Source: Desulfatitalea sp. BRH_c12 (GTDB lineage: Bacteria > Desulfobacterota > Desulfobacteria > Desulfobacterales > Desulfosarcinaceae). From it: a DNA stretch of 64,000 bases. Of this stretch, positions 10,026-63,257 are shown in pieces. The DNA is taken from NCBI GenBank assembly GCA_000961655.1, contig LADR01000012.1, forward strand, positions 62,001 to 126,000. The letters run 5' to 3'. The position numbers and the translations under genes were made by a program. The notes beneath the pieces are model-generated. The model ran no database searches and was not told where the DNA came from. It saw only the letters and a program-made list of their open reading frames with translations. Each line of letters opens with the position of its first letter. Within the stretch, counting starts at the first letter, position 1.

Positions 10026-10368
10026 TGGGCCAATTGCCTTAACGCTTACCCGCAAATCCCCCCCTTCTTTTATTGTTTTTTGGTGATCCAGTTCGCTCCC
10101 AGTGACAGTTGGACGAAGTGTATTCGGCATGGGCACGGAGGAGGTGATCCGGGTGGCGCGGACCACCCACCCGGATCACCGGGGCATCCGTATCTCACTT
10201 GGCCGAAGTGGATAACCAGATATTTGTTTTTCCCGCGAATTACCCTGATGCCCCTCATGCAATCACCTCAAAGGCACGATATAGACTTTTGAGGGGTAGC
10301 GTGCTATTTTGTTGCCACTCTTCCGCAGCGGACCGTTAACCTGTAATGGCAAGGATTGTATTGCATTC
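10026..10368. repeat. Intergenic repeats: 14-bp hairpin and 30-bp box
   Basis: About 340 bp with no gene. A perfect 14-bp inverted repeat with a 10-base loop lies at 10143-10180 (GGTGATCCGGGTGG arm), related in sequence to the 16092-16270 element. A 30-base box at 10193-10222 recurs with one mismatch at 17379-17408. Confidence 0.7.
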
Positions 10369-45864: not shown

Positions 45865-46648
45865 GGATAACAATAAATTGACACGCTTCGGATTTGCATT
45901 TCCCCTCGGTAGCCCCCATGTGTCCCGTACGATGATGCTGACTGAACTGACCCGCCTGATTGATTATATTGGCGACACCAACGCTCCAAAGCAACGATAT
46001 GCCACCGCGATCGTGGAAGAGAACTGTCTCGCCAAGCGCACGGAAAAGAACCGAGCCATTACCAAACGATTTTTGCTTGAGCTCTATACGCTTGACAATA
46101 GTAAAATTCTTTTTCGAGGACTGCTGTTTTTCTGGCAGCGTGACCCCGCCGGGCGTCCCCTGCTTGCGTTGATTTGTGCCTATGCACGGGACACCCTTCT
46201 CAGGACCAGCGCGTCCTATATTCTGCCTTTATCCGAAGGTGCTGCTGTTTCGCGGCGAAGCATGGAGGAATTCCTTGATGGCCAAGACCCCGATCGCTAT
46301 AGCCCAGGAAAGCTTGCCTCCAATGCTAAAAACCTGAACTCCACTTGGACCCAATCCGGCCACCTGTGCGGCCGCTCCAATAAGATTCGAACAAGGATAA
46401 TCCCGAGCCCAGGCAGCGTTTCATATGCACTCCTTTTGGGATACCTAAAAGGCGTTCGGGGTTCGACTTTATTTAACACGGATCTAATGAAACTCCTCGA
46501 CTGTTCATTCGACAAAGCTGTTGAGCTTGCTGAGGAGGCCTCACGAAAAGGATGGATCGTATTCAAACGGGTGGGCGATATCATCGAGGTGCTATTCCCG
46601 AACATGATTAACGAACAAGAAATGGAGTGGCTGCGTGAGCAGAGTTAA
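45854..46648 (+). CDS. brxA: BREX protein BrxA (DUF1819)
   Basis: Protein of 264 residues from an ATG inside the end of the HTH gene; the frame is open further upstream but overlaps that gene's coding region. BrxA is a small, mainly helical DNA-binding protein required for type 1 BREX defence in some systems. Features typical of DUF1819 are the N-terminal GFAFPLGSPHVSRTMMLTEL, the central KRFLLELYTLD and LLALICAYARDTLLRTSA segments, and the C-terminal YALLLGYLKGVRG...LLDCSFDKAVELAEEASRKGWI. The 3' end overlaps brxB by 14 bases. Confidence 0.9.
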   Translation: MTDKDNNKLTRFGFAFPLGSPHVSRTMMLTELTRLIDYIGDTNAPKQRYATAIVEENCLAKRTEKNRAITKRFLLELYTLDNSKILFRGLLFFWQRDPAGRPLLALICAYARDTLLRTSASYILPLSEGAAVSRRSMEEFLDGQDPDRYSPGKLASNAKNLNSTWTQSGHLCGRSNKIRTRIIPSPGSVSYALLLGYLKGVRGSTLFNTDLMKLLDCSFDKAVELAEEASRKGWIVFKRVGDIIEVLFPNMINEQEMEWLREQS

Positions 46649-47186
46649 ACGCCTGTTACAATCCTACAGCAAATACATAGCGGTGCCTTGGCGAGATGAT
46701 GCCGCCGCAGCTCAACGTGTCATCTTTTGCGTTTACGATGAAACCGAAGAACGCTGGCTCCGATCAAAAATCGATGAATTCGATATCGCCACCCGACAAT
46801 CGGGACACGAATGGGCTATCTTTGATTTGACCGACACTTTTGCAGTTTGGTTGACTTCCCAACGATATGCCAAGAGTTATTTCCAAAAGCCGCATTTGCT
46901 ATCTACACTTCTTCCAAAGTACCTTGATTTCATTATTGATGAGTTCTCAGCCTTTCTGCAGAAGAACGAAATCGACGAAAACCACGTGGTGGCGATAAAA
47001 GGCGTGGGTTCACTATTTGGTTTCTTGAAGGTCAAAGAGGTCGTGGAAAAGCTCGCCCCGTTGATTAAGGGCCGGCTTTTGATTTTTTTCCCAGGAAGTT
47101 TCGAGAACAATAATTACAGGTTGCTGGACGGTTATGACGGTTGGAACTACCTCGCCGTGCCCATCACTGCTGACAAGGAATTCTGA
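46635..47186 (+). CDS. brxB: BREX protein BrxB (DUF1788)
   Basis: Protein of 183 residues beginning with GTG inside the end of brxA. The DUF1788 features are RVIFCVYDETEERWLRSKI, a helical middle, VVAIKGVGSLFGFLKVKEVV and the C-terminal GRLLIFFPGSFENNNYRLLDG followed by WNYLAVPI. BrxB is essential for BREX in tested systems and contacts other Brx components; its biochemical role is not established. The length is normal for the family. brxC follows after 26 bases. Confidence 0.92.
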   Translation: MSRVKRLLQSYSKYIAVPWRDDAAAAQRVIFCVYDETEERWLRSKIDEFDIATRQSGHEWAIFDLTDTFAVWLTSQRYAKSYFQKPHLLSTLLPKYLDFIIDEFSAFLQKNEIDENHVVAIKGVGSLFGFLKVKEVVEKLAPLIKGRLLIFFPGSFENNNYRLLDGYDGWNYLAVPITADKEF

Positions 47187-47212
47187 ACGCCAACGCTTAA
47201 GGAATCGAATTG

Positions 47213-50200
47213 ATGATGAAAAACCGTGACATATACCAAAAAGATCCAGCCACCCGCAAACTGGTCAATGAAGGTGTGGCAAACGTTAACGACGAGAGAA
47301 CCAGTCAGGCGCTGGGAGTGCTGCGCTACGAGTTGGAAACCTTCGTCTGTGATGGCCAGTATGAAAAAGGCATGGCCCATATCCTTGAAACCTACCTGAA
47401 GAACATCGACCAGGCCCAACAGCCTGCGGTGTGGGTCAGTGGTTTTTACGGCTCAGGTAAATCTCACCTGGTCAAAATGCTTCGTGCGTTGTGGATAGAT
47501 ACTGTTTTCGAGGATGGCGCAACAGCGCGCGGTATTGCCAATCTTCCCCAAAACATCCGCGATCACCTGAAAGAACTTAACACCCAAGCAAAGCGGCATG
47601 GTGGCCGGCACGCAATCTCCGGCACATTGGGGGCCGGTGCCAGCGGCAGTGTCCGGCTTGCGCTTTTGCGAATCATTTTCAAATCGGCCGGGCACCCCGA
47701 ACAGTATCCCGTCGCCCGCTTTGTTATGTGGCTCAAGCGTGAAGGGATCTATGAACAGGTGCGCAGCCAGGTTGAGCAAAACGGCTTCGACTGGGATGAA
47801 GAGCTGGACAATTTTTATGTGGCCGAGGGGCTCCACCAAGCGCTTGTGCAAGCAAAGCCGAAACTTTTCACGGCCCCTGAATCCTGCGTTGAGACACTTA
47901 ACAACCTCTACCCTTACGTTCAGGACGTTTCCAGTGATGACATGCTCAAAGCCATTCGTCAGGTCCTTACCAAAGACAACAAATTTCCTCTCACCCTGAT
48001 CGTTCTCGATGAGGTGCAGCAGTATATCGGCCAAGACACCCAGCGCTCTATGGACGTACAAGAGGCCGTTGAAGCCTGTTGCAAGAACATCGGCGGGAAA
48101 CTGCTTTTTATCGGCACCGGCCAGACTGCTGTCACCGGCACCAGCAATCTGAAAAAACTCGAAGGTCGTTTCACCATCCGCGTGGAACTTTCGGATGCCG
48201 ATGTGGATGCCGTCATCCGCCAGGTCATATTGGCTAAAAGGCCGGAGGCCAAATCACCCATCGAACAGATGATGCAAACCAATTTAGGGGAAATCTCGCG
48301 GCATCTGGCCGGCACCACCATCGGGCATCGGCAAAACGATATCCCCTTTTTCCCTCAGGATTATCCGATTTTGCCCGTTCGTCGTCGATTCTGGGAAAAT
48401 ACCCTGCGGGTGCTCGACCAGACCGGTACCGACAGCCAGCTACGCAACCAGCTCAGCATGATCCACAAGGTGATTCAGACCAACCTGAACGAGCCGCTGG
48501 GGCATGTGGTCCCGGCCGATTATCTCTATTTCGATTCGGCCGACAAGCTTCTGCAATCCCGCATCCTGCCGCGCAAGGTCCATGAAAAGACCATCAGCTG
48601 GAGCAAGGGCTCGGATGACGAACGGCTCATGGGACGTGCCTGCGGCCTGGTGTTTCTCATCAACAAGCTTGCCGGCAGCAATAATGAAATCGGCATCCGC
48701 GCCACCATCGATACGCTGGGCGATCTTCTGGTCGCGAATCTTTCCCAAGGATCCAGCGCGCTGCGCAGCAAGTTGCCTGGTCTGCTCGATAAATGTGAAC
48801 TGTTGATGAAGGTCGGCGACGAGTACCGTATTCAGACCGAGGAAAGTGCTGCCTGGAGCGATGAGTTTCTGAGCCAGCACTCCGCACTTTCCAATGAAGC
48901 ACACCGGATCGAGGCCGAACGCGACGACCGTATCCGTAAAAAATTTGGCGAAATGGTACGCAAGCTCTCGCTGACCCAGGGCAATTCGAAGGTTACCCGC
49001 GACATCTACCCGGTTTTTGATGCCCAGCTTCCACCAGATGCCGGCCAGCGTATCTGCGTTTGGGTTCGCGACGGGTGGAGCATCGATGAAAACTCGGTGC
49101 GGGCCGATGCCCGTCAGGCTGGCAACCAGTCGCCGACCGTTTTTGTGTTCATCCCCAAGCGCTCGGCCGATGACCTGCGCTATCACCTGATCTATTACAA
49201 GGCCGCCAGCGCCACCCTCGACAAACGCGGCGTTCCCAATACGCCGGAAGGTACCGAAGCCCGCGCGGCCATGGAGACCACCAAACAGACCGCCGAAGGA
49301 AAAATTCGCGAACTGCTCGAAGAAGCCTTCTCCGGAGCCCGCGTATTCCAAGGCGGTGGCAATGAGATTTTTGGCAATAATCTTCAGGAAATGGCACTCG
49401 AAGCAGCAAACAACTCCCTGCAACGGCTCTACCCTCAATTCCACACCGCCGATCATATCGGCTGGGCCAAGGCTTACGAAAAAGCCCAAAAAGGCGCTCC
49501 CGATGCCTTGAAAGCAGTGGGCGACGAAGGTGAGCCTGCCAAGAATCCGGTGTGCAAAGCCATTCTCGGTTTCATTGCTGGGGGTAAAAAAGGCGCGGAC
49601 ATCCGCACGCAATTTGAAGCCACCCCCTATGGGTGGTCCCGTGATGCGGTCGATGGCGGACTGCAAGTCTTGCTGGTGGCTGGGTTAATTCGCGCCCAGG
49701 ACGAGCGTGGACAAATCATGGACCCGAAGGAGCTGGAGCGCAAATCTATCGGCAAGATGATGTTCAAGGTGGAATCCGCCACCGTCACCACCGCGCAACG
49801 CATTCAGGTCCGCAAGCTTCTGCAAAAATATGGCCTGACAGCCAAGCAGGGGGAAGAGCTGACCTATGTTCCCCAGTTCCTGCAAAAGATGATGGCGCTG
49901 GCCGATCAAGCGGGTGGTGAAGCCCCGAAACCGGCGCGGCCCGATACCGTATTTCTGGATGAGATCCGGCTGACAGCAGGCAACGAGCAACTGCTCTCCC
50001 TGTACAACCGGCGCGAGGAACTGGGAAACAGCATCGAAACGTGGTCCGATCTCGCTGAACGCATCACCAAGCGTTGGCCGAACTGGACCGTACTGAAACG
50101 CCTGATGGCGCATGCCGCTGTCATCCAGGACGCCGAGGTGATCCTGGCCCAGGTCAAGACGATCGAGCAGCAGCGTCAGTTGCTCGAAGACCCCGATCTC

Positions 50201-50653
50201 ATCGTGCCGCTGATCGCCAACCTCGCGCAACTGCTGCGGGATGAGCTTAACCGGCTCGACAAGGAATATCAGTTGCGCCATGAAAACGGCATGAAACGTT
50301 TACGAGAAGATTCAAACTGGCAACAGCTTGAGCCGGAGCAGCGAAATCAATTACTTTCAGAGCAAAGATTGACCCTCACCGATCGGCCAACAATCGAGGT
50401 GCAAAACACCAATGAAGTCGTTGCTACCCTTGACAGCTGTACATTGTCGATGTTTGCCGACCGCGTGGCAGCCTTGCCCGCCCGTTTCGACAATGTCGCC
50501 AGTAGCGCCGCCGAACTGTGCGAGCCCGAAATTCAGTTTATTGCGGTACCGCGCCGCACACTGAAATCATTGGATGAAATCGACACCTGGGCGGAAGAGG
50601 TGAAACAGCAGCTTAAGGATGCGCTACAAAACGGTCCGGTTTCGATCCGATGA
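47213..50653 (+). CDS. brxC: BREX P-loop ATPase BrxC
   Basis: Protein of 1146 residues. The start is the ATG 9 bases after AAGGA; the adjacent in-frame TTG and second ATG are near-equivalent. Walker A is GFYGSGKSH (77-85) and Walker B is LIVLDEVQQ (~262-272), followed by a sensor-like GKLLFIGTGQTAVTGT. The rest is helical, with IDENSVRADARQ and coiled-coil-rich segments towards the C-terminus (~960-1050). BrxC is an AAA-type ATPase related to PglY and Orc/Cdc6, required for phage exclusion and for host methylation. It is separated from pglX by an unusual 281-base gap. Confidence 0.95.
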   Translation: MMKNRDIYQKDPATRKLVNEGVANVNDERTSQALGVLRYELETFVCDGQYEKGMAHILETYLKNIDQAQQPAVWVSGFYGSGKSHLVKMLRALWIDTVFEDGATARGIANLPQNIRDHLKELNTQAKRHGGRHAISGTLGAGASGSVRLALLRIIFKSAGHPEQYPVARFVMWLKREGIYEQVRSQVEQNGFDWDEELDNFYVAEGLHQALVQAKPKLFTAPESCVETLNNLYPYVQDVSSDDMLKAIRQVLTKDNKFPLTLIVLDEVQQYIGQDTQRSMDVQEAVEACCKNIGGKLLFIGTGQTAVTGTSNLKKLEGRFTIRVELSDADVDAVIRQVILAKRPEAKSPIEQMMQTNLGEISRHLAGTTIGHRQNDIPFFPQDYPILPVRRRFWENTLRVLDQTGTDSQLRNQLSMIHKVIQTNLNEPLGHVVPADYLYFDSADKLLQSRILPRKVHEKTISWSKGSDDERLMGRACGLVFLINKLAGSNNEIGIRATIDTLGDLLVANLSQGSSALRSKLPGLLDKCELLMKVGDEYRIQTEESAAWSDEFLSQHSALSNEAHRIEAERDDRIRKKFGEMVRKLSLTQGNSKVTRDIYPVFDAQLPPDAGQRICVWVRDGWSIDENSVRADARQAGNQSPTVFVFIPKRSADDLRYHLIYYKAASATLDKRGVPNTPEGTEARAAMETTKQTAEGKIRELLEEAFSGARVFQGGGNEIFGNNLQEMALEAANNSLQRLYPQFHTADHIGWAKAYEKAQKGAPDALKAVGDEGEPAKNPVCKAILGFIAGGKKGADIRTQFEATPYGWSRDAVDGGLQVLLVAGLIRAQDERGQIMDPKELERKSIGKMMFKVESATVTTAQRIQVRKLLQKYGLTAKQGEELTYVPQFLQKMMALADQAGGEAPKPARPDTVFLDEIRLTAGNEQLLSLYNRREELGNSIETWSDLAERITKRWPNWTVLKRLMAHAAVIQDAEVILAQVKTIEQQRQLLEDPDLIVPLIANLAQLLRDELNRLDKEYQLRHENGMKRLREDSNWQQLEPEQRNQLLSEQRLTLTDRPTIEVQNTNEVVATLDSCTLSMFADRVAALPARFDNVASSAAELCEPEIQFIAVPRRTLKSLDEIDTWAEEVKQQLKDALQNGPVSIR

Positions 50654-50934: not shown

Positions 50935-53900
50935 ATGAAACCACTGGATAAACCAATCAGAAACCGACTCGAACGCACCATCAAGGATGCGCGTGACATC
51001 GCCGAGGGCGCTGCCCGCGCTTCGTTGGAGCAACTCGGTGTTGGCGAAGCCGCCCCGTTCGCGCATTTGAGCAACCAGGAACGGGAGCTACGCCGCAAAC
51101 TGCGCGTACATGGGCGCCAACTCGGGGATTCTCTCAACGGCCGTAAGATCCAGACCATGGACCGTCTAATGGAAGAGGTGGCCTACGAGCATTGGCACCG
51201 GATGCTGTTCGCCCGCTTTTTGGCTGAAAACGACCTGCTCATGTACCCGGACCCGGATGATCCAGTGGCTGTAAGCTTGGAAGAGTGCGAGGACCTGGCT
51301 GCCGATGAGGGGGAAAAAAATGGTTGGGAACTGGCCTCACGTTTCGCCGCCCGCATGTTGCCGGAGATTTTCCGACCGGATTCACCGGTCTTTCAATTAG
51401 CGCTGCCGCCCGAGCATCAGCAGAAACTGGAGCTGTTGCTATCCGAACTTCCCCGCGAAGTGTTCCAGGCCTCCGACGCCCTGGGCTGGGTCTACCAGTT
51501 TTGGCAGGCCAAGAAAAAAGACGAGGTCAATGCCTCCGAGGTGAAGATCGGCGCACGCGAACTCCCCATTGTGACCCAGCTCTTTACCGAGTCTTACATG
51601 GTGGCATTTCTTCTGGATAACTCGCTCGGGGCGTGGTGGGCTGCGCGACGGCTGACGGAAGCCGACCTAAGGAACGCCAAGAACGAAGCGGAACTGCGCA
51701 GGAAGGCATCCCTGCCCGGCATGCCGCTCGATTATCTGCGTTTTGTAAAGCAAGAAAACGGCGCATGGGCGCCTGCCGCAGGTGCCTTCAACGGCTGGCC
51801 TGAAAAGCTGGACGAATTCAAAATGCTTGACCCTTGTTGCGGGTCCGGACACTTCCTGGTGGTCGCCTTTTTGATGCTGGTCGCTATGCGCATGGCGGAT
51901 GAGAGAATGTCGGTCCAGGGGGCGGCCGAAGAGGTGTTGCGTGACAATCTTTACGGCCTGGAGATCGACAGACGCTGCACCGAAATCGCTGCCTTCAACC
52001 TCGCGCTGACGGCCTGGCGGCTTGCGGGCTATCGCCAATTGCCGGCGCCCCATATCGCCTGTACCGGAATTTCCGTTGGCAGCTCGCGCGAGCAATGGAT
52101 GGACATTCTCGCCGGGCAGCCGATCGTCTCCAACTTGCGTTTTTATTTCGGCCAGCTCTACGACCTCTTCAGCAAGGCACCCACCCTGGGCAGCCTGATC
52201 AATCCCCACCGGTTCCTGGGCAGCGGTCTGCTGGACGAGAAGGGCATGGCGAATCTGCATCGCGCCTTGACCGCGGCATTGGCTGGGGAGGCAAAGACGG
52301 TGACAGAGCGCTCCGAAATGGGTGTCACCGCACAGGGTGTGGCAAAGGCTGCGGAACTCCTGACCGGCCGGTTTACACTGGTGGCGACGAATGTGCCCTA
52401 CCTCGGACGAGGCAAGCAGGACGAGGTGCTCAAAGGGCATCTTGAAACTCATTACCCCCTGGGAAAGGCTGACTTGGCGACTGCCTTTGTTTTGCGTTGC
52501 CTGGAGTTTTGCGCCAAGGGTGGGACCACAGTCCTGGTGACCCCACAGAACTGGCTCTTTTTAACCACCTATACCAAGTTACGCCAGATGTTGCTTGAAA
52601 ATCGATCTTGGAATGTGGTGGCGCGATTGGGGCCGGGTGCCTTTGAGACTATCTCCGGCCATGTTGTGAACGTGGCCTTGCCGATGATAACTGCGAATAT
52701 ACCAGATGATGCTCACACCATGGCTGGAATCGATGTATCGGCAACAAAGGAGCCTGAAGAAAAAGCGGCTATGTTGCGAAAGGCGAAATCTGCAGAGATT
52801 GTGCTCGTGTTGCAGGATGAGCAACTTAAGAATCCGGATGCAAGAGTGACGGTTGAGAAAAGGTCAAACCTTCCACTTCTGAGCTCCTTCGCCAAGTGTT
52901 TGGTAGGGATTCAAACGGGAGATGATCCATATTACATCGTAGGTTTTTGGGAGGTTGAATGGGGTGGTTCGAAACTGTGGGAACCGATGCAAGCAACCCC
53001 AGATGAATTTTCTGAATTTGCTGGACAATCGTGGATGATTCGATGGGCATCTGGGAAAGGGGATTTACACCTTGCCAAGGGCGCTAGAATACAGGGCATC
53101 GAAGCTGTTGGGAAAAATGGCGTCGCTATGCATAGAATGGGTCGATTGTTCCCATATTACTATCTGGGGAATTTCTATCATCAGAACGTAGCAGTTATAG
53201 TCCCCCGTGAGTCTATTCACCTTCCTGCAATCTGGTGTTTCTGTTCCTCTCCTGATTATGAAAAAGCGGTTCGAAAGATTGACCAGAAATTGAACGTCAC
53301 CAATGCTACACTGGTTAAAATTCCATTTGACATAGCCAACTGGCAAAAAATCGCTGCTGAGAAGTATCCCAACGGTCTACCTGAACCCGAAAGCGATGAC
53401 CCCACCCAATGGCTTTTTCACGGTCGCCCGGAACATTCTACCGCGCCCCTTCAAGTGGCTGTCGCGCGGCTCCTGGGTTTTCGTTGGCCCGCTGAGTTAG
53501 ATGAGAAAATGCGCCTCAGTCAACGAGCGCGGGAACTGGTCCAGCGTTGTGATGAATTGTTCTCCTTTGCTGACAAGGACGGCATCATATGTATTCCGCC
53601 CGTGCGCGGCGAGGCATCGGCCGCCGACCGCCTGCTTAACATGCTCGTCAAGGCCTACGGCAAAGAGTGGCATACCGATGTTCTTAGCGCCCTTTTGAAA
53701 GATGCCGGCTTTGCCGGCAAGCACTTGGAGACCTGGCTTCGCGAAGGTTTTTTTGCCCAGCACTGCGACCTGTTCCACCAGCGTCCCTTCATCTGGCAAA
53801 TTTGGGACGGCCTGCGTGGTGGTTTTTCCGCCCTTGTGAATTATCACAAGCTCGACCGCAAGAACTTGGAGACCCTGATCTTCACTTATCTGGGCGACTG

Positions 53901-54369
53901 GATCAGCCGGCAGAAGAACGACATCGCCAGCGGAGTCGATGGCGCACAGGAACGCTTGCAAGCCGCCGACGCCCTCAAGAAACGCCTGGAGCTGATCCTC
54001 GAAGGAGAATCACCGTACGATATTTTCGTGCGCTGGAAACCGCTTCGCAAACAGCCCATCGGCTGGGAACCGGACTTGAACGACGGCGTACGGTTGAACA
54101 TCCGACCGTTCTTAAGCGTTCCCGACATAAAGACGAAGGGCGCCGGGGTTCTGCGCGTGACACCCAAAATCAAGTGGACCAAGGACCGGGGCAAGGAGCC
54201 CAAGCGCCCCATCCGTGAGTATCCCTGGTTCTGGGGCTGGGACGGCAAAGTGGACTTCGAGGGCGGCTCGGAATTCACCGGCGAACGATTCAATGACTGC
54301 CACTACACTTTGGATATCAAACGCCGCGCGCGTCAGAGCACGGATGAAACAGAAGGAGTCTTCTCATGA
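50935..54369 (+). CDS. pglX: BREX-1 adenine-specific DNA methyltransferase PglX
   Basis: Protein of 1144 residues. The N-terminal helical part (~1-290) is typical of PglX. The methyltransferase core has the SAM motif LDPCCGSGHFLV (~299-310) and NLYGLEIDRRC, followed by the catalytic motif IV, which here reads ATNVPYLGRG (~483-492) where NPPY is usual. A large target-recognition and C-terminal region follows (~620-1144). In type 1 BREX, PglX methylates the N6 of adenine in an asymmetric ~6-base site on one strand, marking host DNA. An AGCAGGAAT site precedes the ATG. The TGA overlaps the ATG of the AIPR gene by 4 bases (ATGA). Confidence 0.94.
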   Translation: MKPLDKPIRNRLERTIKDARDIAEGAARASLEQLGVGEAAPFAHLSNQERELRRKLRVHGRQLGDSLNGRKIQTMDRLMEEVAYEHWHRMLFARFLAENDLLMYPDPDDPVAVSLEECEDLAADEGEKNGWELASRFAARMLPEIFRPDSPVFQLALPPEHQQKLELLLSELPREVFQASDALGWVYQFWQAKKKDEVNASEVKIGARELPIVTQLFTESYMVAFLLDNSLGAWWAARRLTEADLRNAKNEAELRRKASLPGMPLDYLRFVKQENGAWAPAAGAFNGWPEKLDEFKMLDPCCGSGHFLVVAFLMLVAMRMADERMSVQGAAEEVLRDNLYGLEIDRRCTEIAAFNLALTAWRLAGYRQLPAPHIACTGISVGSSREQWMDILAGQPIVSNLRFYFGQLYDLFSKAPTLGSLINPHRFLGSGLLDEKGMANLHRALTAALAGEAKTVTERSEMGVTAQGVAKAAELLTGRFTLVATNVPYLGRGKQDEVLKGHLETHYPLGKADLATAFVLRCLEFCAKGGTTVLVTPQNWLFLTTYTKLRQMLLENRSWNVVARLGPGAFETISGHVVNVALPMITANIPDDAHTMAGIDVSATKEPEEKAAMLRKAKSAEIVLVLQDEQLKNPDARVTVEKRSNLPLLSSFAKCLVGIQTGDDPYYIVGFWEVEWGGSKLWEPMQATPDEFSEFAGQSWMIRWASGKGDLHLAKGARIQGIEAVGKNGVAMHRMGRLFPYYYLGNFYHQNVAVIVPRESIHLPAIWCFCSSPDYEKAVRKIDQKLNVTNATLVKIPFDIANWQKIAAEKYPNGLPEPESDDPTQWLFHGRPEHSTAPLQVAVARLLGFRWPAELDEKMRLSQRARELVQRCDELFSFADKDGIICIPPVRGEASAADRLLNMLVKAYGKEWHTDVLSALLKDAGFAGKHLETWLREGFFAQHCDLFHQRPFIWQIWDGLRGGFSALVNYHKLDRKNLETLIFTYLGDWISRQKNDIASGVDGAQERLQAADALKKRLELILEGESPYDIFVRWKPLRKQPIGWEPDLNDGVRLNIRPFLSVPDIKTKGAGVLRVTPKIKWTKDRGKEPKRPIREYPWFWGWDGKVDFEGGSEFTGERFNDCHYTLDIKRRARQSTDETEGVFS

Positions 54370-56039
54370 GCATCAACGTCGGCATCATCGATCAACGCGT
54401 GCGACAGCTGGCCGAGGACCTTGCACGAGAGTTTGAAACGCGCCTGAACATCAGGAACGATGAAGATAAACAGCGTTCCACGGCCTTCGTGTTCCTGGCT
54501 GTCAAAACCGTACTCGACCTGCCCGATGAGGAGGCCCTGGATTGTATGACCGAGGGCGGCAACGACTTCGGTGTGGATGCAGTCCATATCGGCGACGTTG
54601 AGGACAGTGAGTTCACCGTGACGTTGTTCCAGGGGAAATACAAAAAGGATCTGGCGGGTAATGCGAACTTTCCGCAGGGCGGCGTGGAAAAAGTTGTTCA
54701 GGCGATAAGATACCTCTTCGACCCGGATGCCGTCGTCACCACGAATAGGCAGCTAACCGCGCGCATCGAGGAGATCCGCTCGCTGGTGCGTGATGGCCAC
54801 ATACCCCGCGTTCGCGTTGTGCTGTGCAACAACGGTCTCAAATGGAAGGATGCGGCGCAACAGATCATTGACGGTGCGGGACTGCCCAGCGACCAGGTCG
54901 GATGGGAGCATGTCAATCATGACGATATCGTCCGCTTGATGCAGGCAACACGGCAGGTGGATGACACCTTGCGCTTAGCAGGCAAGGCCATCGTCGAGGA
55001 CTTGGATTATTGCCGCGTACTTATCGGCAAAATTCCGGTACGAGAGATCGAGGTGCTGTTTAATCGTCATGGTGACCTTCTCTTAGAACGAAACGTCCGC
55101 CGTTTTCTCGGGTTGCAGGGAAACCGGGTGAACCAGGGAATCGATTATACCCTCAGGACCGAAGCCGAACGCGAGAATTTCTATTTCTATAATAACGGCA
55201 TCACGCTGCTTTGCCGGAAATTCACCTATAACGCGCTGCAGGGCGAAAACTTCCAAGTCCGCGTTGAGGGGCTTCAGATCATCAACGGTGGCCAGACCTG
55301 CAAGACGATCCAGGCGACTTTGGCCGCGCTTGCCGGCGCGGATGCAGGCTTGGAGAAGGCGTTTGTTCTCGTCCGTCTCTACCAGTTGCCAAGCGACGCG
55401 GCGGATCTGGTTCGCAGTATCACCTATGCGACCAACAGCCAGAACCCGGTGGACCTGCGTGACCTGCGCTCGAACGATTCAAAGCAAAAAAGTCTGGAAA
55501 CGGCCATCCGGGAACTTGGCTTTACCTACCACCGCCATCGTAGTGAAGCATCACTCAAGACAACCGACATTAGCAGCGCCACCGCAGCGGAGGCGGTGTT
55601 GTCCGCATGGAGAGAACGGCCACATCAGGGAAAATTCTATGGCCGGGAACATTTTGGTAAGCTCTATGATCTTATTTTTAGTGATGACTTGAATGCAACG
55701 CAGGTGGTCATCGCCACCTTGCTGTTCCGATTCGCGGAAAACAAGCGCAGGCGCCCGCCTGCGGGTGCGCCGGATTTCATTGCCTACGCATCTTGCTTTG
55801 CGGCAATGTTAATGGGCCGATACCTTCTAAAAGACCTTGGCATGTCTCTCGCACAATTGGATCATCGCAAATTCGCCGAAGCTAAATCCAAACTTGATCA
55901 GAATGAAGAAGTATATTTTTCACGTGCGGTCACGGACATAGATGCGGCGGTAAAAAGATTATATTGCGACCAAACGCCATCTTTGCAGCGGTTGGCGGCG
56001 ACCTTCCGGCGCGGCGACCTCTTGCAGGAACTATCGTGA
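54366..56039 (+). CDS. AIPR-family protein with PD-(D/E)XK-like N-terminus
   Basis: Protein of 557 residues. The AIPR (abortive infection phage resistance, PF10592-like) domain covers ~230-480: NFYFYNNGITLLCRKF, VEGLQIINGGQTCKTI, SITYATNSQNPVDLRDLRS. The N-terminus (~40-110) shows a nuclease-like pattern GGNDFGVDAVHI...TVTLFQGKYKK, i.e. Asp67/Asp71 and Gln89-x-Lys91, as in Mrr-type PD-(D/E)XK enzymes that use QxK. It starts within the pglX stop (ATGA), giving direct translational coupling to the methyltransferase, and the next gene follows after 13 bases. This is an accessory effector, not a core BREX gene. Confidence 0.85.
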   Translation: MSINVGIIDQRVRQLAEDLAREFETRLNIRNDEDKQRSTAFVFLAVKTVLDLPDEEALDCMTEGGNDFGVDAVHIGDVEDSEFTVTLFQGKYKKDLAGNANFPQGGVEKVVQAIRYLFDPDAVVTTNRQLTARIEEIRSLVRDGHIPRVRVVLCNNGLKWKDAAQQIIDGAGLPSDQVGWEHVNHDDIVRLMQATRQVDDTLRLAGKAIVEDLDYCRVLIGKIPVREIEVLFNRHGDLLLERNVRRFLGLQGNRVNQGIDYTLRTEAERENFYFYNNGITLLCRKFTYNALQGENFQVRVEGLQIINGGQTCKTIQATLAALAGADAGLEKAFVLVRLYQLPSDAADLVRSITYATNSQNPVDLRDLRSNDSKQKSLETAIRELGFTYHRHRSEASLKTTDISSATAAEAVLSAWRERPHQGKFYGREHFGKLYDLIFSDDLNATQVVIATLLFRFAENKRRRPPAGAPDFIAYASCFAAMLMGRYLLKDLGMSLAQLDHRKFAEAKSKLDQNEEVYFSRAVTDIDAAVKRLYCDQTPSLQRLAATFRRGDLLQELS

Positions 56040-56052: not shown

Positions 56053-57858
56053 ATGATTAAGTCGGTAAACAATTATCCGATTTCTCAGCTCTTTGATATA
56101 GAGGCAGATGTGGTCTTTGCCATTCCGCGCTATCAAAGAGAATATTCTTGGGGGAAAAACCAGTGGGAGAATCTATTCGACGATGTTGTGGAGAATAATT
56201 TGGGATATTTTCTTGGCTCCATCATCTGTATCAACCAATCGACCGATGCCTTGGCAGTACAAAAACTTGAACTGGTCGATGGCCAGCAGCGCCTGACCAC
56301 GCTATCGCTGCTCTTTGCTGCGGTCTACCGCGCTCTCAAAAGCCATGAGTCCGAACTGGACGATGAACAGCGGGTCGAACTGATCAACTTGAAGCGTAAG
56401 TTGGTCCTGAAAAAAGGTGACGAGCAGATCCGTGTGATTCCGCAAATTCAGAACAACAACCAGAATGATTACCGGGCCATTTTGGCTGAGATAGGCATTA
56501 TCGGCGAGTGTGATGCACCCGCTTATGCCGGGAATCGGAAAATATTTCGAACCTATCGATACTTTCAGGGCCGTATTAATGAGATGATTGACGATCTGGG
56601 GCATCGGATCGGAACCATTATGGAGTTTCTCGACAAGGTAAGCCACGCGTCCCTGGTCAAGATCGAGGTGGCGAGTCATGCCGATGCGTATACCTTGTTT
56701 GAATCGTTAAACAACCGTGGCATGCCGCTCACGGCCATCGATTTAATCAAAAACAAATTGCTGGCACGACTAGAAGCCATTGAACCGGGCAAGGTCGACC
56801 AATACTTTGGCCATTGGAATCGTCTCCTTGGCTATCTGGGAGATGATTACGCCATTCAGGAGCGTTTTTTCCGTCAGTACTACAACGCTTTCAAGGATGA
56901 ATTGAAAGCGGTGCACCAGGTTCCTGTTGCTACCCGCTCGAACCTGATCCAAATCTATGAAAAGTTCATCAACCATGATGCTAAGGATTGCTTGCAGAAA
57001 ATTAGCGCCGCTGGTCGACTGTACTCGCTGATACTCTCGCGCAACCAGGACGATGCCCTAAATGGGATCGAAAAACCACTCAAGGATTTAGAACGAATCC
57101 AAGGAGCGCCATCATACCTACTGTTGCTTTACCTTCTGGTACGTAAGGACGAGTTGCAACTGGATAACGACCATCTCACGGCAATTGTCTCTCTGCTGGT
57201 TTGCTTCTTCGTTCGCCGTAATCTCACAGACACACCGCCTACCCGGGATCTGACCCGGCTGTTCATGACGATCATCGACAAGCTGAATGGCCTGGCCGGC
57301 TCTGCAATCCCACAGACCATCCGAAATCAAATTATAGCAATCTCTGCCTCCGATGATGTGTTCCAGCGCAAGTTGGAAGGGCCAATTTACGAAGAAAACT
57401 CCGGTGTCACACGATTCATTCTGTGCGCCTTGGCTGAACAAGCCATGACCAAGGAGACCAGGCTCGATCTCTGGCGCTTCGAGCACAAACAGTTCGTTTG
57501 GACGATTGAGCACATTTTCCCTCAGGGTGAAAACATTCCTCCGTCCTGGGTTGCCATGGTCGCCACTGGAGACCAGCAAAAAGCCAAGGAAGCTCAGCAG
57601 ACCCATGTCCACAAATTGGGGAATCTGACCATCTCCGGATTCAACAGCGCGTTAGGTAACAAGAGCTTTGTCGAAAAGCGGGACCGAACCGACCGGCAGG
57701 GCCGTGCGGTGGGTTATAAAAACGGCCTTAAGCTCAACGAGGATCTTGCAGCTGTGCAAACTTGGAGCTTAGCCCAAATCGATGCCAGAACCAATAAGCT
57801 AATCGAACAAGTGAAAGTTCTGTTCAAACTCCAGGAGGTATCGCATGAGAGAGCTTGA
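56053..57858 (+). CDS. DUF262-DUF1524 fused type IV restriction enzyme (GmrSD/BrxU-like)
   Basis: Protein of 601 residues; GAGGAG lies 9 bases before the ATG. The N-terminal DUF262 domain has IPRYQREYSW (24-33) and DGQQRLTTL (76-84), the ParB-like NTP-binding/hydrolysis signature. The C-terminal DUF1524 domain has the HNH-type nuclease motif IEHIFPQ (~487-493) and HKLGNLTISGFNSALGNKSF (~519-540). Fused GmrSD enzymes cut DNA with modified (e.g. glucosylated hydroxymethyl) cytosines. BrxU, a fused GmrSD enzyme, sits between pglX and pglZ in the Escherichia fergusonii pEFER BREX locus, the same slot as here, so an analogous role against phages with modified DNA is likely. Confidence 0.88.
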   Translation: MIKSVNNYPISQLFDIEADVVFAIPRYQREYSWGKNQWENLFDDVVENNLGYFLGSIICINQSTDALAVQKLELVDGQQRLTTLSLLFAAVYRALKSHESELDDEQRVELINLKRKLVLKKGDEQIRVIPQIQNNNQNDYRAILAEIGIIGECDAPAYAGNRKIFRTYRYFQGRINEMIDDLGHRIGTIMEFLDKVSHASLVKIEVASHADAYTLFESLNNRGMPLTAIDLIKNKLLARLEAIEPGKVDQYFGHWNRLLGYLGDDYAIQERFFRQYYNAFKDELKAVHQVPVATRSNLIQIYEKFINHDAKDCLQKISAAGRLYSLILSRNQDDALNGIEKPLKDLERIQGAPSYLLLLYLLVRKDELQLDNDHLTAIVSLLVCFFVRRNLTDTPPTRDLTRLFMTIIDKLNGLAGSAIPQTIRNQIIAISASDDVFQRKLEGPIYEENSGVTRFILCALAEQAMTKETRLDLWRFEHKQFVWTIEHIFPQGENIPPSWVAMVATGDQQKAKEAQQTHVHKLGNLTISGFNSALGNKSFVEKRDRTDRQGRAVGYKNGLKLNEDLAAVQTWSLAQIDARTNKLIEQVKVLFKLQEVSHERA

Positions 57859-57876
57859 TCATCTGGAGGCACCACA

Positions 57877-58857
57877 ATGAGCAAGAGGATTCGACGTGTC
57901 GGTTCCATCAAGAGCGAGCTTCTTAAAAAATCGCGGGAGGCGACCCTTGCCGCCGTCCAGATTTTCAACAACCCAAACATTAGCTTTAAGTCGGAATCCT
58001 ATGTGGTTCTAATGATCATCGCCTGGACTTATCTTCTTCATGCATATTTTCGCGATCAAAAAATTGAATATCGCTATTGCCAGCTGAACGGCAAACGGCG
58101 TGAATTCGATAGAACAAAACATGGGGCCTGCAAGTATTGGGAACTCGAGCGTTGCCTTAATGATCCCAAATCCCCAATTGACAAAGATACGGCCAATAAT
58201 CTTCGCTTCCTCATTGGGTTACGTCATGAGATCGAGCATCAAATGACGACTCGGATAGACGATATTCTGAGCGCCCGTTTCCAAGCGTGCTGCCTGAACT
58301 TTAACGCGTACATCAAGAAATTGTTTGGAGTAGGCAAAGGAATTGAAAAGCACCTTTCATTCAGCCTTCAGTTTTCGACAATTTCGACAGAGCAAAAAGA
58401 ACTTCTGGAAGAGCATCGCGATCTTCCAAAGAATATCCAAGGCTATATCAAGGATTTTGACGCTAAATTATCCGACGATGAGTTTTCCCATCCGCATTAT
58501 GCCTACCGGATTCTGTTTGTTGCCAAAACTGCCAACCGAAAAGGGCAGGCGGATCGTGTGATCGAATTTGTAAAGAGCGATTCACCTCTGGCGGAAGCTG
58601 TAAATAGAGAGTACGCCGTAATAAAAGAAACTGAAAAGAAGAAATATTTGCCAATGCAGGTCGTAGATTTGATGAAAGCAGAAGGCTATCCCACCTTTTC
58701 AATCCATAACCATACCCAGCTCTGGCAATCGATGGACGCAAAGAATCCTGTTAATGGTTTCGGTACCATGGTGGCTGGAAAAGTTTGGCATTGGTATGAA
58801 CGATGGATCGATTTGGTGCGAAAGCATTGCCAGGAAAATAAAGAACGATATTCATGA
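57877..58857 (+). CDS. DUF3644-family protein with R-x4-H motif
   Basis: Protein of 326 residues; GGAGG precedes the ATG by 8 bases. It matches DUF3644 in layout: an N-terminal LLKKSREATLAAVQIFNNP, then FKSESYVVLMIIAWTYLLHA, then a helical hairpin with LIGLRHEIEHQM. The RHEIEH stretch is an R-x4-H motif of the kind used by HEPN ribonucleases, and the surrounding helices fit that fold. The C-terminal ~100 residues (YLPMQVVDLMKAEGYPTFSIHNHTQLW) form a separate domain I cannot name. It lies 18 bases after the GmrSD-like gene and 24 bases before pglZ, inside the BREX operon. Confidence 0.75.
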   Translation: MSKRIRRVGSIKSELLKKSREATLAAVQIFNNPNISFKSESYVVLMIIAWTYLLHAYFRDQKIEYRYCQLNGKRREFDRTKHGACKYWELERCLNDPKSPIDKDTANNLRFLIGLRHEIEHQMTTRIDDILSARFQACCLNFNAYIKKLFGVGKGIEKHLSFSLQFSTISTEQKELLEEHRDLPKNIQGYIKDFDAKLSDDEFSHPHYAYRILFVAKTANRKGQADRVIEFVKSDSPLAEAVNREYAVIKETEKKKYLPMQVVDLMKAEGYPTFSIHNHTQLWQSMDAKNPVNGFGTMVAGKVWHWYERWIDLVRKHCQENKERYS

Positions 58858-58881: not shown

Positions 58882-61215
58882 ATGAGGGTGATGGAACACC
58901 TCGTTAAGGCCGTTCGCGATGCCGCCGTCTTCAATCCGGAAGTTCAGGTAGCCCCGGCATGCATCCTGTGGCCGGACCGTGACCGTCAATGGGAGGCCGC
59001 CATTCCAGTCCTTCAGGCAGAGTTGCCTGAATTGTTGATACTGGGTAACTATGCTCCCGATAAGCGCACGGGACCAGCTATTTGGCTTCGTTGTGTCATC
59101 GCGGGGGGTGTGCAAGACGTGTCACTGCCGAGAGACCGCACTCCTATATTCTGCTTGCCCGGTGTCAGTCGCCAGGATCTGCGGGCCATCGAAAGCTGTC
59201 CGGACAATCTGAAACCGCTGGCCGAACTGCAGTACCGGGGTGTGATCTGGTCGCAGATCAATGCCAAAGATTGGACCATTCTGGCTTATCTCAAGTCAGA
59301 TCAGGGTGGGCTGGGTTTGGATGTAGCCCAGGATAATGCCGCCAAGAATGCGATGCAGTTGGCACTATACCGATTGCTTGATGAGGAGGTGGCGCTTCTC
59401 AAGGGAAAACGTCTGGACAAAGACTATTTCAACACCCTGCTGACCGGCGGCGACCCCATAAGAGATCTGTTGCAATGGCTCAACCAGGGGGATGCCTTCC
59501 GGGATAGCAGGGGCGAGAATGAATGGAAAGCCTTCGTCGAGGTATGCAAGTCACAACTTGCGTTTAACCCGCAGAAAGAGGGCGTGCTTGCGGGGGCAGC
59601 CAAATTGGCTAACCATGAGGGCCCCTGGCGCGCGGTATGGGAACGCTTTTGCGAGGCACCCAAGCGTTATCCGAATGTCCCTGTCCAAATTCGTAAGTGT
59701 TCGCCGCCTATCGACAATATTCTTTGGCATATGGGTGATGGCCCTTTCGATGGCTGGCCGCAATGGAACGAGGGGCGTGAAAAACAGCTTTGTGCAGACC
59801 TTCAAGGTCTCTCGAATGTCCCCGCCCACGAGGCCAGAAAAAAGCTGTTGGAATTGGAAAAACAGCATGCCCATAGGCGTAAACTGGTTTGGGTTGAGCT
59901 ATGTGAAGCACCTCTGGCGTGCGCATTAGAGCACCTGTCCGTATTGGCTGAAGTCACCCAAACAAATCTCTCCGCAGGCACGTGTGATGATCTTGCCGCC
60001 GGGTATTGCAGTTTTGGATGGAAAGCTGACGATGCCGTTATGAAGGCTTTGGCGTATGTTGAAAGCAATGCTGATTTTGAAGCGATTTCAGCTGCCATAC
60101 GGTCGGTTTATCTGACATGGGCAGAAGAGTCATCGCGTCATCTACAAAAAATTGTCAACGGTGCTTCATACCCAGGAGGGACCAGCTTTTTCGCGAAGAC
60201 GATATCCGTGAGTTCCGGCGAATGCATCTTATTCGTTGATGGTCTTCGATTTGATATGGGTAAACGAACCTCTGAAATGCTGGAGTTCTTAGGGTTAGAT
60301 GTTGTAGAGGAAGCCCTGTGGTGTCCGCTCCCATCCGTGACCGGGACTGGCAAACCTGCCGTGGCGCCCATTGGCGGTTCAAGCCGTATTGCTGAAGAAC
60401 CGCAAGGTTACAATTTTGAACTGTTCAGCGCTTATCAGCTGCATAAAGCTATCGAAGAAAATGGATTCCAAATCCTCGCAAAGCATGAGAACGGCGATCC
60501 ACAGGGTAAGGGGTGGTGTGAGTTTGGCGACATCGATCATGAAGGCCATGATCGGGGCTGGAAACTGGCCAAACAAATTGACCATTTGCTCGCGGAGGTT
60601 CGGGACCGCGTAGCTGCTCTACTCTCTGCCGGCTGGAAATGCGTTTGGGTCGTAACCGATCACGGATGGTTACTGCTTCCCTTAGGGCTTCCGGATATCC
60701 AACTACCCAGTCCCCTTGCCGATACCAAGTGGGGACGCTGTGCTTCTTTGAAGCCTGGTGCTTCAACCGATGAACGTCTATATCCTTGGTTCTGGAATCC
60801 GGACCAGCATTTTGCGCTGGCAGACGGTATAAGCTGCTTTAAAAAGGGCGAAGAATACGCGCATGGCGGCTTAAGCCTGCAGGAATGTCTGACGCTTCAA
60901 TTGAAAGTTTCAAAAAGGACATCTGGAGGCAGCGCTTTACACGTTGAATTCACTGATGTGGTCTGGAAGGGATTACGTTGCACGGTCGCCGTGGATGGCG
61001 AATTCTCGGGTTTAAGACTTGATATTCGCACGCAACCAGGTAATTCTTCGTCGAGTGTGGCTGTTGGTATCAAAGCTTTTAAAGATAATGGAACGGTTTC
61101 AGTTGTAGTCGAGGATGAAGATATGGAGGGGCGAAATGCTACATTGGTTATACTTGACGCCGCCGGCGCATTAATGGCTCAGATTAATACGATCATAGGT
61201 GGGGAAAAACCATGA
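58882..61215 (+). CDS. pglZ: BREX-1 alkaline-phosphatase-like protein PglZ (type B)
   Basis: Protein of 777 residues; AGAGGA precedes the ATG by 8 bases. The N-terminus (VQVAPACILWPDRDRQWEA, LPELLILGNYAPDKRTGPAIWLR) is typical of the B-type PglZ of type 1 BREX. The alkaline-phosphatase-fold core has ILFVDGLRFDMGKR (~449-460), the metal-site Asp region, and VWVVTDHGWLLLP (~585-597). PglZ is required for defence and for methylation; metal-dependent phosphodiesterase activity has been reported for family members. The stop codon overlaps the brxL ATG (ATGA). Confidence 0.94.
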   Translation: MRVMEHLVKAVRDAAVFNPEVQVAPACILWPDRDRQWEAAIPVLQAELPELLILGNYAPDKRTGPAIWLRCVIAGGVQDVSLPRDRTPIFCLPGVSRQDLRAIESCPDNLKPLAELQYRGVIWSQINAKDWTILAYLKSDQGGLGLDVAQDNAAKNAMQLALYRLLDEEVALLKGKRLDKDYFNTLLTGGDPIRDLLQWLNQGDAFRDSRGENEWKAFVEVCKSQLAFNPQKEGVLAGAAKLANHEGPWRAVWERFCEAPKRYPNVPVQIRKCSPPIDNILWHMGDGPFDGWPQWNEGREKQLCADLQGLSNVPAHEARKKLLELEKQHAHRRKLVWVELCEAPLACALEHLSVLAEVTQTNLSAGTCDDLAAGYCSFGWKADDAVMKALAYVESNADFEAISAAIRSVYLTWAEESSRHLQKIVNGASYPGGTSFFAKTISVSSGECILFVDGLRFDMGKRTSEMLEFLGLDVVEEALWCPLPSVTGTGKPAVAPIGGSSRIAEEPQGYNFELFSAYQLHKAIEENGFQILAKHENGDPQGKGWCEFGDIDHEGHDRGWKLAKQIDHLLAEVRDRVAALLSAGWKCVWVVTDHGWLLLPLGLPDIQLPSPLADTKWGRCASLKPGASTDERLYPWFWNPDQHFALADGISCFKKGEEYAHGGLSLQECLTLQLKVSKRTSGGSALHVEFTDVVWKGLRCTVAVDGEFSGLRLDIRTQPGNSSSSVAVGIKAFKDNGTVSVVVEDEDMEGRNATLVILDAAGALMAQINTIIGGEKP

Positions 61216-63257
61216 TTGACTTGGATCATATTGATGTGCAAGCAGCCGCTTCGCTTGATGGGTTTCTGGTCCGCAAGGATCTGGTCCGGACGTTCAGCCG
61301 CCAATTCCCGGTGCCAACCTACGTTGTTGAGTTTTTACTCGGCCGTTATTGCGCCAGCATCGACCAGGAGGAGATCGAAGAAGGACTGGAGATCGTTCAG
61401 CGCCAACTCAAATCGAAAACGGTCAAAGCAGGTGAGGAGGAGTTGTTTAAGGCAAGGGCCAGGGAGAATGGTGAAGTTAAAATCATTGACCTGATTACCG
61501 CCCGGCTGGATGCCAAAACGGATTCTTATGTGGCAACCCTGCCCAGCTTGCGCCTGAACGATGTCCGCATCAGTCCGGAACTGGTCAATAGCAATGAGCG
61601 GATGCTGACAGGCGGATTTTACGCTGAGATCAGTCTCGGTTACGATGCCGCCATTGCCCAAGAAAGCAAAGGACGCCCCTTTGGCGTTGATTCACTCCGG
61701 GGAATCCAGCTTTCCAAGCGCGATGTGTTGGATACGATGGCTGAAGCCCGCAAGCAGTTCTCGACCGATGAGTGGAAAGACCTCCTTTTTCGTTCCATTG
61801 GCATTGAACCCAGTGGCTTATCTCCGCGGCAAAAGAGTGCCTTCATGCTGCGTATGGTTCCATTTGTCGAACGCAATTATAACCTTGTGGAACTTGGTCC
61901 ACGCGGAACCGGCAAAAGTCATCTTTTCCAGCAGGTGTCGCCCTACGCGCATTTAATTTCTGGTGGAAAGGCAACGGTCGCCCGCATGTTCGTTAACAAC
62001 GCAAACGGGCAACGCGGTTTAGTTTGTCAATATGATGTGGTCTGTTTTGATGAAGTATCTGGCATATCCTTCGATCAAAAAGACGGCGTGAACATCATGA
62101 AGGGCTACATGGAATCCGGCGAGTTCAGCCGAGGGAAAGAAAGCATTCGTGCAGACGGGAGCATTGTGCTGGTGGGCAACTTTGAGGTCGATGTTGAACA
62201 TCAGCAGAGGATCGGCCACCTGTTCGGTCCCATGCCACCGGAAATGAAAGACGATACGGCCTTCATGGATCGCATCCATGGTTTTTTGCCCGGATGGGAT
62301 GTGCCAAAGATCAGCAAGGAATTTCTGACCAACCATTTTGGCCTGGTTAGCGATTTCCTATCCGAATGCTGGAGCCAACTCCGAAATCAGAGTCGAATAA
62401 GCGTATTGCAAAATCGGGTCTTTTTTGGCGGAGCATTATCTGGGCGCGATACAAATGCGGTCAACAAAACCGTCAGCGGACTTCTCAAACTACTTTATCC
62501 TGGCAATGGTGAGGTGCCAGACGAAGATCTGGAATGGGCCGTTAGAATCGCCATGGAATCAAGACGGCGGGTAAAAGAACAGCAGAAGCGGATCGGGGCC
62601 GCTGAATTCCGCAATACGCATTTCAGCTACGTCATGGGCGCCGATGGGGTCGAAAAATTTGTCTCCACGCCTGAAATGCGAAGCGAGAACAGTATCGGTG
62701 GGGATCCCTTGGAGCCAGGACAAGTTTGGAGTATTAGTCCGGGGGGTGCTGAAGATCACCCAGGGCTTTATCGCATTGAAATCAATGAAGGGCCGGGATC
62801 AGGTGTCAAGATTCTCAATAAACCCGTACCCCCGGCCTTTAAAGAAAGCATGGCATATGCAGAACAAAATTTGTATTCCCGGTCAATGCAGTTAGTAGGC
62901 GATAAAGATCCTCGCCATCATGAATTTACGGCTCAGCTCCGTGCCTTTGATGCCTCAAAAGCGGGTGCCAAACTAGGTGTGGCTGTTTTAATTGCCCTTT
63001 GCACAGCGCTTTTGAAAAAAAGCGTGCGCGGAGGTCTCATCATTGTTGGCGAAATCAATCTTGGTGGCTCTATAGAACCTATTCACAATCCTGTAGTTCT
63101 CGCAGAGATAGCTGTAGAAAAAGGTGCCTCGGCGCTGCTTATGCCTGTTGCCTGCAGGCGCCAGCTGTTTGACCTTTCAGATGATATGGCAACAAAAATC
63201 GATATACAATTTTATTCTGACGCCAGGGATGCATTGTTAAAGGCGATTGTGGATTAG
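61212..63257 (+). CDS. brxL: BREX Lon-like/MCM-like AAA+ protein BrxL
   Basis: Protein of 681 residues, last gene of the operon. A helical N-terminal domain is followed by an AAA+ core with Walker A LGPRGTGKSHLFQ (~228-240), Walker B VVCFDEVSGISF and a sensor-like SIVLVGNFEVDV. The C-terminal ~110 residues resemble the Lon protease domain (KLGVAVLIALCTALLKKS, GLIIVGEINLGGSIEPIHNP), but the catalytic Ser and Lys positions do not hold Ser and Lys. BrxL forms MCM-like rings on DNA and is required for phage exclusion but not for host methylation in tested type 1 systems. Confidence 0.94.
   Translation: MIDLDHIDVQAAASLDGFLVRKDLVRTFSRQFPVPTYVVEFLLGRYCASIDQEEIEEGLEIVQRQLKSKTVKAGEEELFKARARENGEVKIIDLITARLDAKTDSYVATLPSLRLNDVRISPELVNSNERMLTGGFYAEISLGYDAAIAQESKGRPFGVDSLRGIQLSKRDVLDTMAEARKQFSTDEWKDLLFRSIGIEPSGLSPRQKSAFMLRMVPFVERNYNLVELGPRGTGKSHLFQQVSPYAHLISGGKATVARMFVNNANGQRGLVCQYDVVCFDEVSGISFDQKDGVNIMKGYMESGEFSRGKESIRADGSIVLVGNFEVDVEHQQRIGHLFGPMPPEMKDDTAFMDRIHGFLPGWDVPKISKEFLTNHFGLVSDFLSECWSQLRNQSRISVLQNRVFFGGALSGRDTNAVNKTVSGLLKLLYPGNGEVPDEDLEWAVRIAMESRRRVKEQQKRIGAAEFRNTHFSYVMGADGVEKFVSTPEMRSENSIGGDPLEPGQVWSISPGGAEDHPGLYRIEINEGPGSGVKILNKPVPPAFKESMAYAEQNLYSRSMQLVGDKDPRHHEFTAQLRAFDASKAGAKLGVAVLIALCTALLKKSVRGGLIIVGEINLGGSIEPIHNPVVLAEIAVEKGASALLMPVACRRQLFDLSDDMATKIDIQFYSDARDALLKAIVD

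Follow-up and report, generated by a model that had tools for sequence, protein, structure and literature searches.

Predicted HEPN ribonucleases beside restriction and BREX genes

DUF3644 was named by Anantharaman et al. (2013; PMC3710099) as a new family of HEPN proteins, so its HEPN membership was already known, and the same authors reported that EC042_2821, a family overlapping DUF3644, occurs in restriction-modification operons. For restriction-linked HEPN proteins in general they proposed an analogy to PrrC, and where they discuss Pgl operons, the HEPN families that they assign to them are pEK499_p136 and RloC, not DUF3644. More recently, Rakesh & Krishnan (2026; PMC12839542) described standalone HEPN proteins inside or beside the core genes of BREX (bacteriophage exclusion) operons, proposing them as suicidal backup effectors, and treated GmrSD as an auxiliary BREX enzyme. 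Here we describe a DUF3644 protein encoded inside a type I BREX operon of Desulfatitalea sp. BRH_c12, within a stretch of 64,000 nucleotides (contig LADR01000012.1, positions 62,001 to 126,000 of the forward strand) that is called the window below.

This protein belongs to the same Pfam family as the DUF3644/EC042_2821 proteins and shares their R-x4-H motif; unlike EC042_2821, for which fusions to winged helix-turn-helix, restriction endonuclease and zinc-ribbon domains are described (PMC3710099), it consists of an HEPN domain and a C-terminal winged-helix-like part only. Like the backup effectors of Rakesh & Krishnan it is a standalone HEPN protein within BREX; DUF3644 is not named in the main text of that paper, and its supplementary tables may list it. 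It also resembles GmrSD/BrxU and PARIS as an accessory defence gene carried with a BREX operon (PMC12839542), with effectors that differ. PrrC of the EcoprrI system is likewise an HEPN ribonuclease encoded between hsdS and hsdR, the ribonuclease activity being a prediction in the case of DUF3644. However, PrrC carries an ABC-ATPase at its N-terminus, and its linkage to type Ic systems is described as invariable (PMC2610378), whereas DUF3644 proteins lack the ATPase, sometimes lack the partner and also occur in BREX. No ABC-ATPase fused to the HEPN domain, as in PrrC and RloC, was found in the window protein, for which Pfam gives DUF3644 only at E<=0.01.

In its general form, the main idea of the initial annotation, an RNA-targeting abortive HEPN module kept in check by BREX components, is therefore in print (Anantharaman et al., 2013; Rakesh & Krishnan, 2026). 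What appears to be added here is that DUF3644 also resides in BREX, together with the counts for the hsdS–hsdR slot, the coupling to an upstream gene that we call c6, and a weak agreement of protein distances with restriction partners; the comparison covers the main text of PMC12839542. The term PDC-S19, the PADLOC name that the protein also matches, was not met in the literature searched, where DUF3644 itself occurs in one paper.

Our favoured explanation, to which we assign a probability of roughly 0.55, is a conditional endoribonuclease of the HEPN type, fused to a winged-helix-like sensor domain at its C-terminus, i.e. a portable second-line effector that brings its own sensor and is docked in a swappable BREX slot. 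By analogy with the systems above, an RNA-targeting abortive module is plausible. In a healthy cell the enzyme would be silenced by self-inhibition through the protein's own C-terminal half. Infection would activate it, either through a cue that this half detects or through the state of the host DNA-modification machinery, and it would then cleave RNA, with tRNA or another RNA of translation as the likeliest target, stopping phage growth. Here, the module is docked between pglX and pglZ of the type I BREX operon, along with AIPR and GmrSD modules.

Active-site motif, predicted fold and domain layout

The gene and the parts of its product are located as follows in the window (pLDDT, predicted local distance difference test).

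57877..58857, + strand: gene for the DUF3644 / PDC-S19 protein, 326 amino acids, ATG start (Pfam PF12358, 2e-58; PADLOC PDC-S19, 1.5e-169)
57898..58335, + strand: HEPN-fold domain, residues 8-153 (AlphaFold2 model; VIA-align matches to HEPN structures)
57916..57930, + strand: E14-x3-K18, an Ex3[KR]-like HEPN element (invariant in 77/77 rows)
58222..58239, + strand: R116-H-E-I-E-H121, predicted catalytic R-x4-H (row conservation)
58489..58635, + strand: conserved middle region, residues 205-253 (YR..F..K..N..GQAD..IEF), a low-confidence hairpin and helix
58636..58839, + strand: C-terminal winged-helix-like domain, residues 254-321 (AlphaFold2 of this part alone, block pLDDT 90-97)

The match to PF12358 spans residues 14-197 and profile positions 1-182 of 183, at 197.5 bits against a gathering score of 27.6, and that to PDC-S19, a PADLOC candidate-defence family, covers residues 1-324. 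Conservation was read over 81 rows, the window protein and the best 80 of 192 relatives (L001-L080, L-numbers denoting the relatives' loci), which are from genome contigs and 58-90% identical to it; the context classes and the tree below draw on the same set, with L081, the window's own genome, left out. Alignments of 77 rows leave out L032, L040, L054 and L076. A further comparison of 16 rows comprises the window, five loci, seven relatives from plasmids, of which four have 23-27% identity, and three from viral contigs.

RHEIEH (residues 116-121) is the sole R-x4-H of the protein. R116, E118, E120 and H121 are each invariant in all 81 rows (R and H also in 77 of 77), and R116, E120 and H121 remain so in 16 of 16, including the plasmid relatives at 23-27% identity. 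A polar residue after the Arg of R-x4-6-H is an HEPN trait (PMC3710099), which the DUF3644 rows fit, residue 117 being H in 79 of 81 rows and D or N otherwise. Neither of the R-x6-H alternatives is conserved on both sides (R75 and H82 in 41 and 23 of 77 rows, R110 and H117 in 46 and 75 of 77). Ex3[KR] is the second HEPN element, present in many, not all, families (PMC3710099); its counterpart E14-x3-K18 is not conserved in the distant plasmid relatives L092-L094. The gene is under purifying selection, with proportions of nonsynonymous differences (pN) of 0.05-0.11 against synonymous ones (pS) of 0.67-0.85, mostly saturated, in eight comparisons; the rate ratio dN/dS could be computed in two of these only, giving 0.04, and 0.01 at near-saturation.

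The AlphaFold2 model built from 77 rows has a mean pLDDT of 74 for the whole chain and contains helices at residues 11-31, 38-60, 103-119 and 127-150, a small hairpin at 68-77, and the R-x4-H where the third helix ends. Compared by VIA-align, residues 8-153 gave Z 7.3-9.6 over the first 13 rows, with unrelated helical bundles from Z 6.0; the matches include 2hsb (Z 9.6, 119 residues aligned, 2.5 Å), MntA-HepT (8.7), the HEPN toxin 8yuf (8.3), Csm6 (8.1) and sacsin HEPN (7.5). HEPN, HepT or Csm6 is named in eight of the 13 top titles, and the other five structures we take to be HEPN-type as well. Several points weigh against this part of the favoured explanation. With either model (whole chain or C-terminal part), Foldseek on its own returned nothing at E<=0.001, and Z 8-10 for a helical bundle falls in the range about which VIA-align warns; moreover, residues 161-179 and 210-253 have pLDDT <50, so that contact between the two domains is not readable from the model. 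Sequence searches of the PDB, whether by the single protein or by the 77-row profile, brought up no relative, the profile yielding chance-level rows only. As Foldseek alone was not significant, the case for the fold is made by the consistent VIA-align rows together with the motif, and on the strength of the model the assignment of residues 8-153 to the HEPN fold is supported.

The C-terminal part, modelled alone, is a confident helix-helix-hairpin-helix unit at about residues 254-321 that is seen in both models. Its best structural matches are weak and point to DNA-binding domains, namely that of RacA (Z 7.1), CarH (5.9) and the partition protein 3ez9 (5.9); with Z this low and calmodulin-like chains next at 5.4, a winged helix is at most probable from the model. 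Agreement with the window residue is lowest here, at 0.55 for residues 254-326 compared to 0.79 for residues 11-60. A profile of this part found three matches in 395 genomes of the phylum, one being the window gene itself, and as all three are full-length DUF3644 proteins, independent use of the domain was not found in that sample.

The initial annotation had taken RHEIEH for an HEPN ribonuclease centre, to be judged by the conservation of its Arg and His and by the fold. Both residues turned out to be conserved and the predicted fold to be HEPN-like, neither refuting the claim, which the literature on the family (PMC3710099) also supports; the second C-terminal domain that it had left unnamed is confirmed as a unit.

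Genomic contexts and possible control of the predicted nuclease

Profile searches within 9 kb, with greedy calling of open reading frames (ORFs), placed 46 of the 80 loci beside type I restriction genes, 10 in BREX and 24 in neither (56 of 80 in defence contexts), the 24 being an upper bound because of contig ends and the restriction-like neighbours of L065 and L075. L042, L044, L069 and L073 were flagged as close to a contig end, and further loci are close to one too; L005 was scored as neither, although two such genes end upstream of DUF3644 there, HsdS at a distance of about 8 kb and c6 at about 6.7 kb. L008 was classed as BREX from short PglX-like and PglZ-like ORFs, and L004 and L106 are probably from the same genome.

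Copies that appear to lack a partner are found on chromosomes, plasmids and viral contigs. At least five of the 24 have metabolic or housekeeping genes as neighbours (L025, L031, L041, L051 and L055). An intact DUF3644 gene, with 53-55% identity, is present in three viral contigs of IMG/VR (at 8001 in L085, 8001 in L086 and 7048 in L087), and no restriction or BREX gene was found in their 10-16 kb by single-sequence queries, a check that, applied to plasmid loci, overlooked the annotated methylase of L094. Plasmid copies matched 27 records, of which seven were examined; apart from L092 and L094 no adjacent restriction gene is listed for them in the PLSDB gene tables, which are incomplete, and in L089 a type ISP restriction gene lies about 5.4 kb away. 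The window genome has a single DUF3644 match overall.

The strongest alternative is a guard of the PrrC kind, silenced by bound HsdMS or PglX and freed once that complex comes under attack from an anti-restriction protein of the phage, for example Ocr; we regard it as possible and hold it only tentatively. Gene order speaks for it. In the 46 type I loci HsdS is encoded immediately upstream in 30 and HsdR immediately downstream in 22, and in 33 of them DUF3644 has HsdS or HsdM upstream as well as HsdR downstream, all on one strand, the exact order hsdS-DUF3644-hsdR occurring in 17 of 80 loci. The prr locus has the order hsdM-hsdS-prrC-hsdR, and EcoprrI keeps PrrC latent until Stp releases it (PMC3014915). 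The position of the DUF3644 gene in BREX is between pglX and pglZ, and BrxX/PglX is bound by Ocr (PMC7261183). In two of the seven plasmid records, a DNA methyltransferase gene adjoins DUF3644 (L092) or is one gene away (L094). A related reading, in which the protein is an ATPase-free PrrC counterpart watching both type I complexes and PglX, whose ribonuclease fires once either is put out of action by a DNA mimic from the phage and whose winged-helix tail docks or senses, seems to us doubtful.

Against guarding stands, besides the missing ABC-ATPase, the weak agreement of distances. Across the type I loci, DUF3644 distances correlate with those of HsdM at r 0.29 (34 of 46 loci), of HsdR at 0.22 (36 of 46) and of HsdS at 0.33 (40 of 46), compared to r 0.97 between HsdM and HsdR (31 loci). 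The type I genes were also sought by genome for 19 of the 24 loci in neither class (all except L005, L042, L044, L046 and L065), and 18 were covered, L073 being the one missing. HsdS was present in 12 of these 18 genomes and HSDR_N in 12, against HsdS in 9 of 14 control genomes, and neither HsdS nor HSDR_N was found in 5 of 18, genomes whose completeness is not given. A type I partner acting in trans for the partnerless copies was accordingly rejected, as HsdS is not in excess over the control genomes. The copies that have no restriction or BREX gene in their neighbourhood count against any dedicated restraint; together with the five genomes and the weak distance agreement they are the reason why self-contained control is put ahead of control by BREX.

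Several of these results also tell against the favoured explanation. The Hsd correlations, though weak, are above permutation (p 0.0005-0.003), and r is lowered by the narrowed range that comes from picking the 80 rows nearest to the window; contact through a conserved surface would, in any case, leave little trace in distances. DUF3644 stands directly after hsdS in 30 of 80 loci compared to 15 of 1045 other genes, by a crude control, which suggests that this placement means more than cassette shuffling. Some of the loci assigned to neither class are at contig ends, L065 has DNA methylase and helicase genes on the other strand, and L075 has an HSDR_N protein. Of the earlier proposal, then, the HEPN centre is supported and the second domain confirmed, and restraint of the predicted ribonuclease by BREX components is the less likely form of control.

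In the 81-row tree, made by a quick method, the BREX label changes three times against a shuffled mean of 10.4, with none of 500 shuffles as low. Ten of the 11 BREX rows, the window included, fall in one 12-row set (support 95), whose other two members are L006 (type I) and L005 (unassigned); L011 and L015, both type I, join this set at support 85, and L035, which has a Pfam-confirmed pglZ, stands apart as another association with BREX. The tree is unrooted, and we infer that the copies in BREX arose from those in type I loci.

The BREX operon and its accessory slot

The remaining features of the operon in the window are as follows.

45692..46648, + strand: brxA (PADLOC, 2.3e-104)
46635..47186, + strand: brxB (PADLOC, 3.8e-82)
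47210..50653, + strand: brxC (PADLOC, E=0)
50935..54369, + strand: pglX, adenine methyltransferase (PADLOC, E=0)
54366..56039, + strand: AIPR / AbiU-like accessory gene (Pfam AIPR, 1.6e-50)
56053..57858, + strand: gene for a GmrSD-type (BrxU-like) restriction enzyme (Pfam GmrSD_N, 6.9e-39; GmrSD_C, 1.1e-17)
57865..57869, + strand: GGAGG, ribosome-binding-like motif (sequence read)
58882..61215, + strand: pglZ, type 1-B (NCBIfam NF033450, 6e-275)
61212..63257, + strand: brxL (PADLOC, 1e-301)

BrxA, BrxB, BrxC, PglX, PglZ and BrxL are all matched in the window, which bears out the placement of the DUF3644 gene inside BREX. The order on one strand is brxA, brxB, brxC, pglX, AIPR/AbiU-like, GmrSD, DUF3644, pglZ, brxL, so the gene lies inside the type I core operon and is co-directional with the core genes, as expected of an accessory effector, with gaps of 18 nucleotides to GmrSD upstream and 24 to pglZ downstream. 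A promoter consensus scan found no site between GmrSD and DUF3644, and three sites in total against a shuffle mean of 4.6. The window's PglZ is present in three of the 40 relatives searched, the window genome being counted among the 40, so the BREX operon itself is patchy. GmrSD/BrxU and PARIS, too, use the position between pglX and pglZ. By eye, the window's AIPR protein has an N-terminal GVDA...FQGKY resembling a PD-(D/E)XK nuclease site.

Other BREX loci fill the slot differently. In nine of the ten (the window not counted) a protein of 428-432 residues, c6, is encoded directly upstream of DUF3644, and the two genes overlap by 4 nucleotides in seven of these nine and by 1 or 8 in the other two. 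The c6 gene lies at 8709-10004 in L001, within a longer ORF at 7198-8727 in L002, and at 2052-3347 in L005, with kin in L003, L004, L007-L010 and L012. It has no match in Pfam or PADLOC, and chance-level rows only in PDB; a GVD...QYK pattern looks PD-(D/E)XK nuclease-like by eye. In L005, c6 follows HsdS and precedes a SIR2-like protein.

This coupling brings up a second alternative, in which the ribonuclease works with or under c6 as a two-gene module and, in the window, AIPR or GmrSD took over the role. We consider this unlikely. The window combines AIPR, GmrSD and DUF3644 without c6, which was not found anywhere in its genome, whereas the same search found it in G425, a genome of the same family whose BREX locus is laid out like L004; c6 as an obligatory partner is thus rejected for the window. 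In L107 an AIPR gene whose product is 81% identical to the window's stands directly before pglZ with neither DUF3644 nor c6, on which ground AIPR is rejected as a dedicated partner, and in L010 a GmrSD-like gene (a match at 23% identity) occurs alongside c6 and DUF3644. In addition, c6, AIPR and GmrSD are all missing from most type I loci. The differing gene sets of L010, L107 and the window indicate that accessory genes combine variously and that the BREX slot is modular. A third alternative, that the HEPN domain is catalytically silent and regulates BREX by binding RNA or protein, is very improbable given the invariant R-x4-H and neighbouring acidic residues.

Further arrangements were observed around the slot. 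In L107 a second PglX-like ORF (10000-11901, 633 residues) directly follows one of 1117 residues and precedes AIPR, as a split or duplicated methyltransferase might. In L009 roughly the first 66 codons of pglZ occur twice among the accessory genes (6147-6656 and 8203-8712), upstream of the complete pglZ, an arrangement that would fit duplication of the pglZ start when cassettes insert. A YhcG gene precedes DUF3644 in L035, and in L063 DUF6602 proteins are encoded on both sides of it (9165-9920 and 11135-12472), possibly a further type of partner. A gene for an Mrr-type nuclease overlaps DUF3644 from upstream in L013 (9024-9995), and the overlapping gene of L014 (9033-9995) clusters with it; those of L015 (9199-10014) and L011 (9306-10004) encode Abi_C proteins, the match being marginal in L011. 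With such variable overlapping upstream genes, DUF3644 is often the second of a pair whose first gene varies.

If the ribonuclease is real, BREX operons of this kind would hold a second line of defence that acts on RNA once DNA-based exclusion fails, and one small effector would serve both type I restriction and BREX. The comparison of the hsdS-X-hsdR and pglX-X-pglZ slots offers the testable idea that an effector encoded between modification and restriction genes may monitor the modification enzyme.
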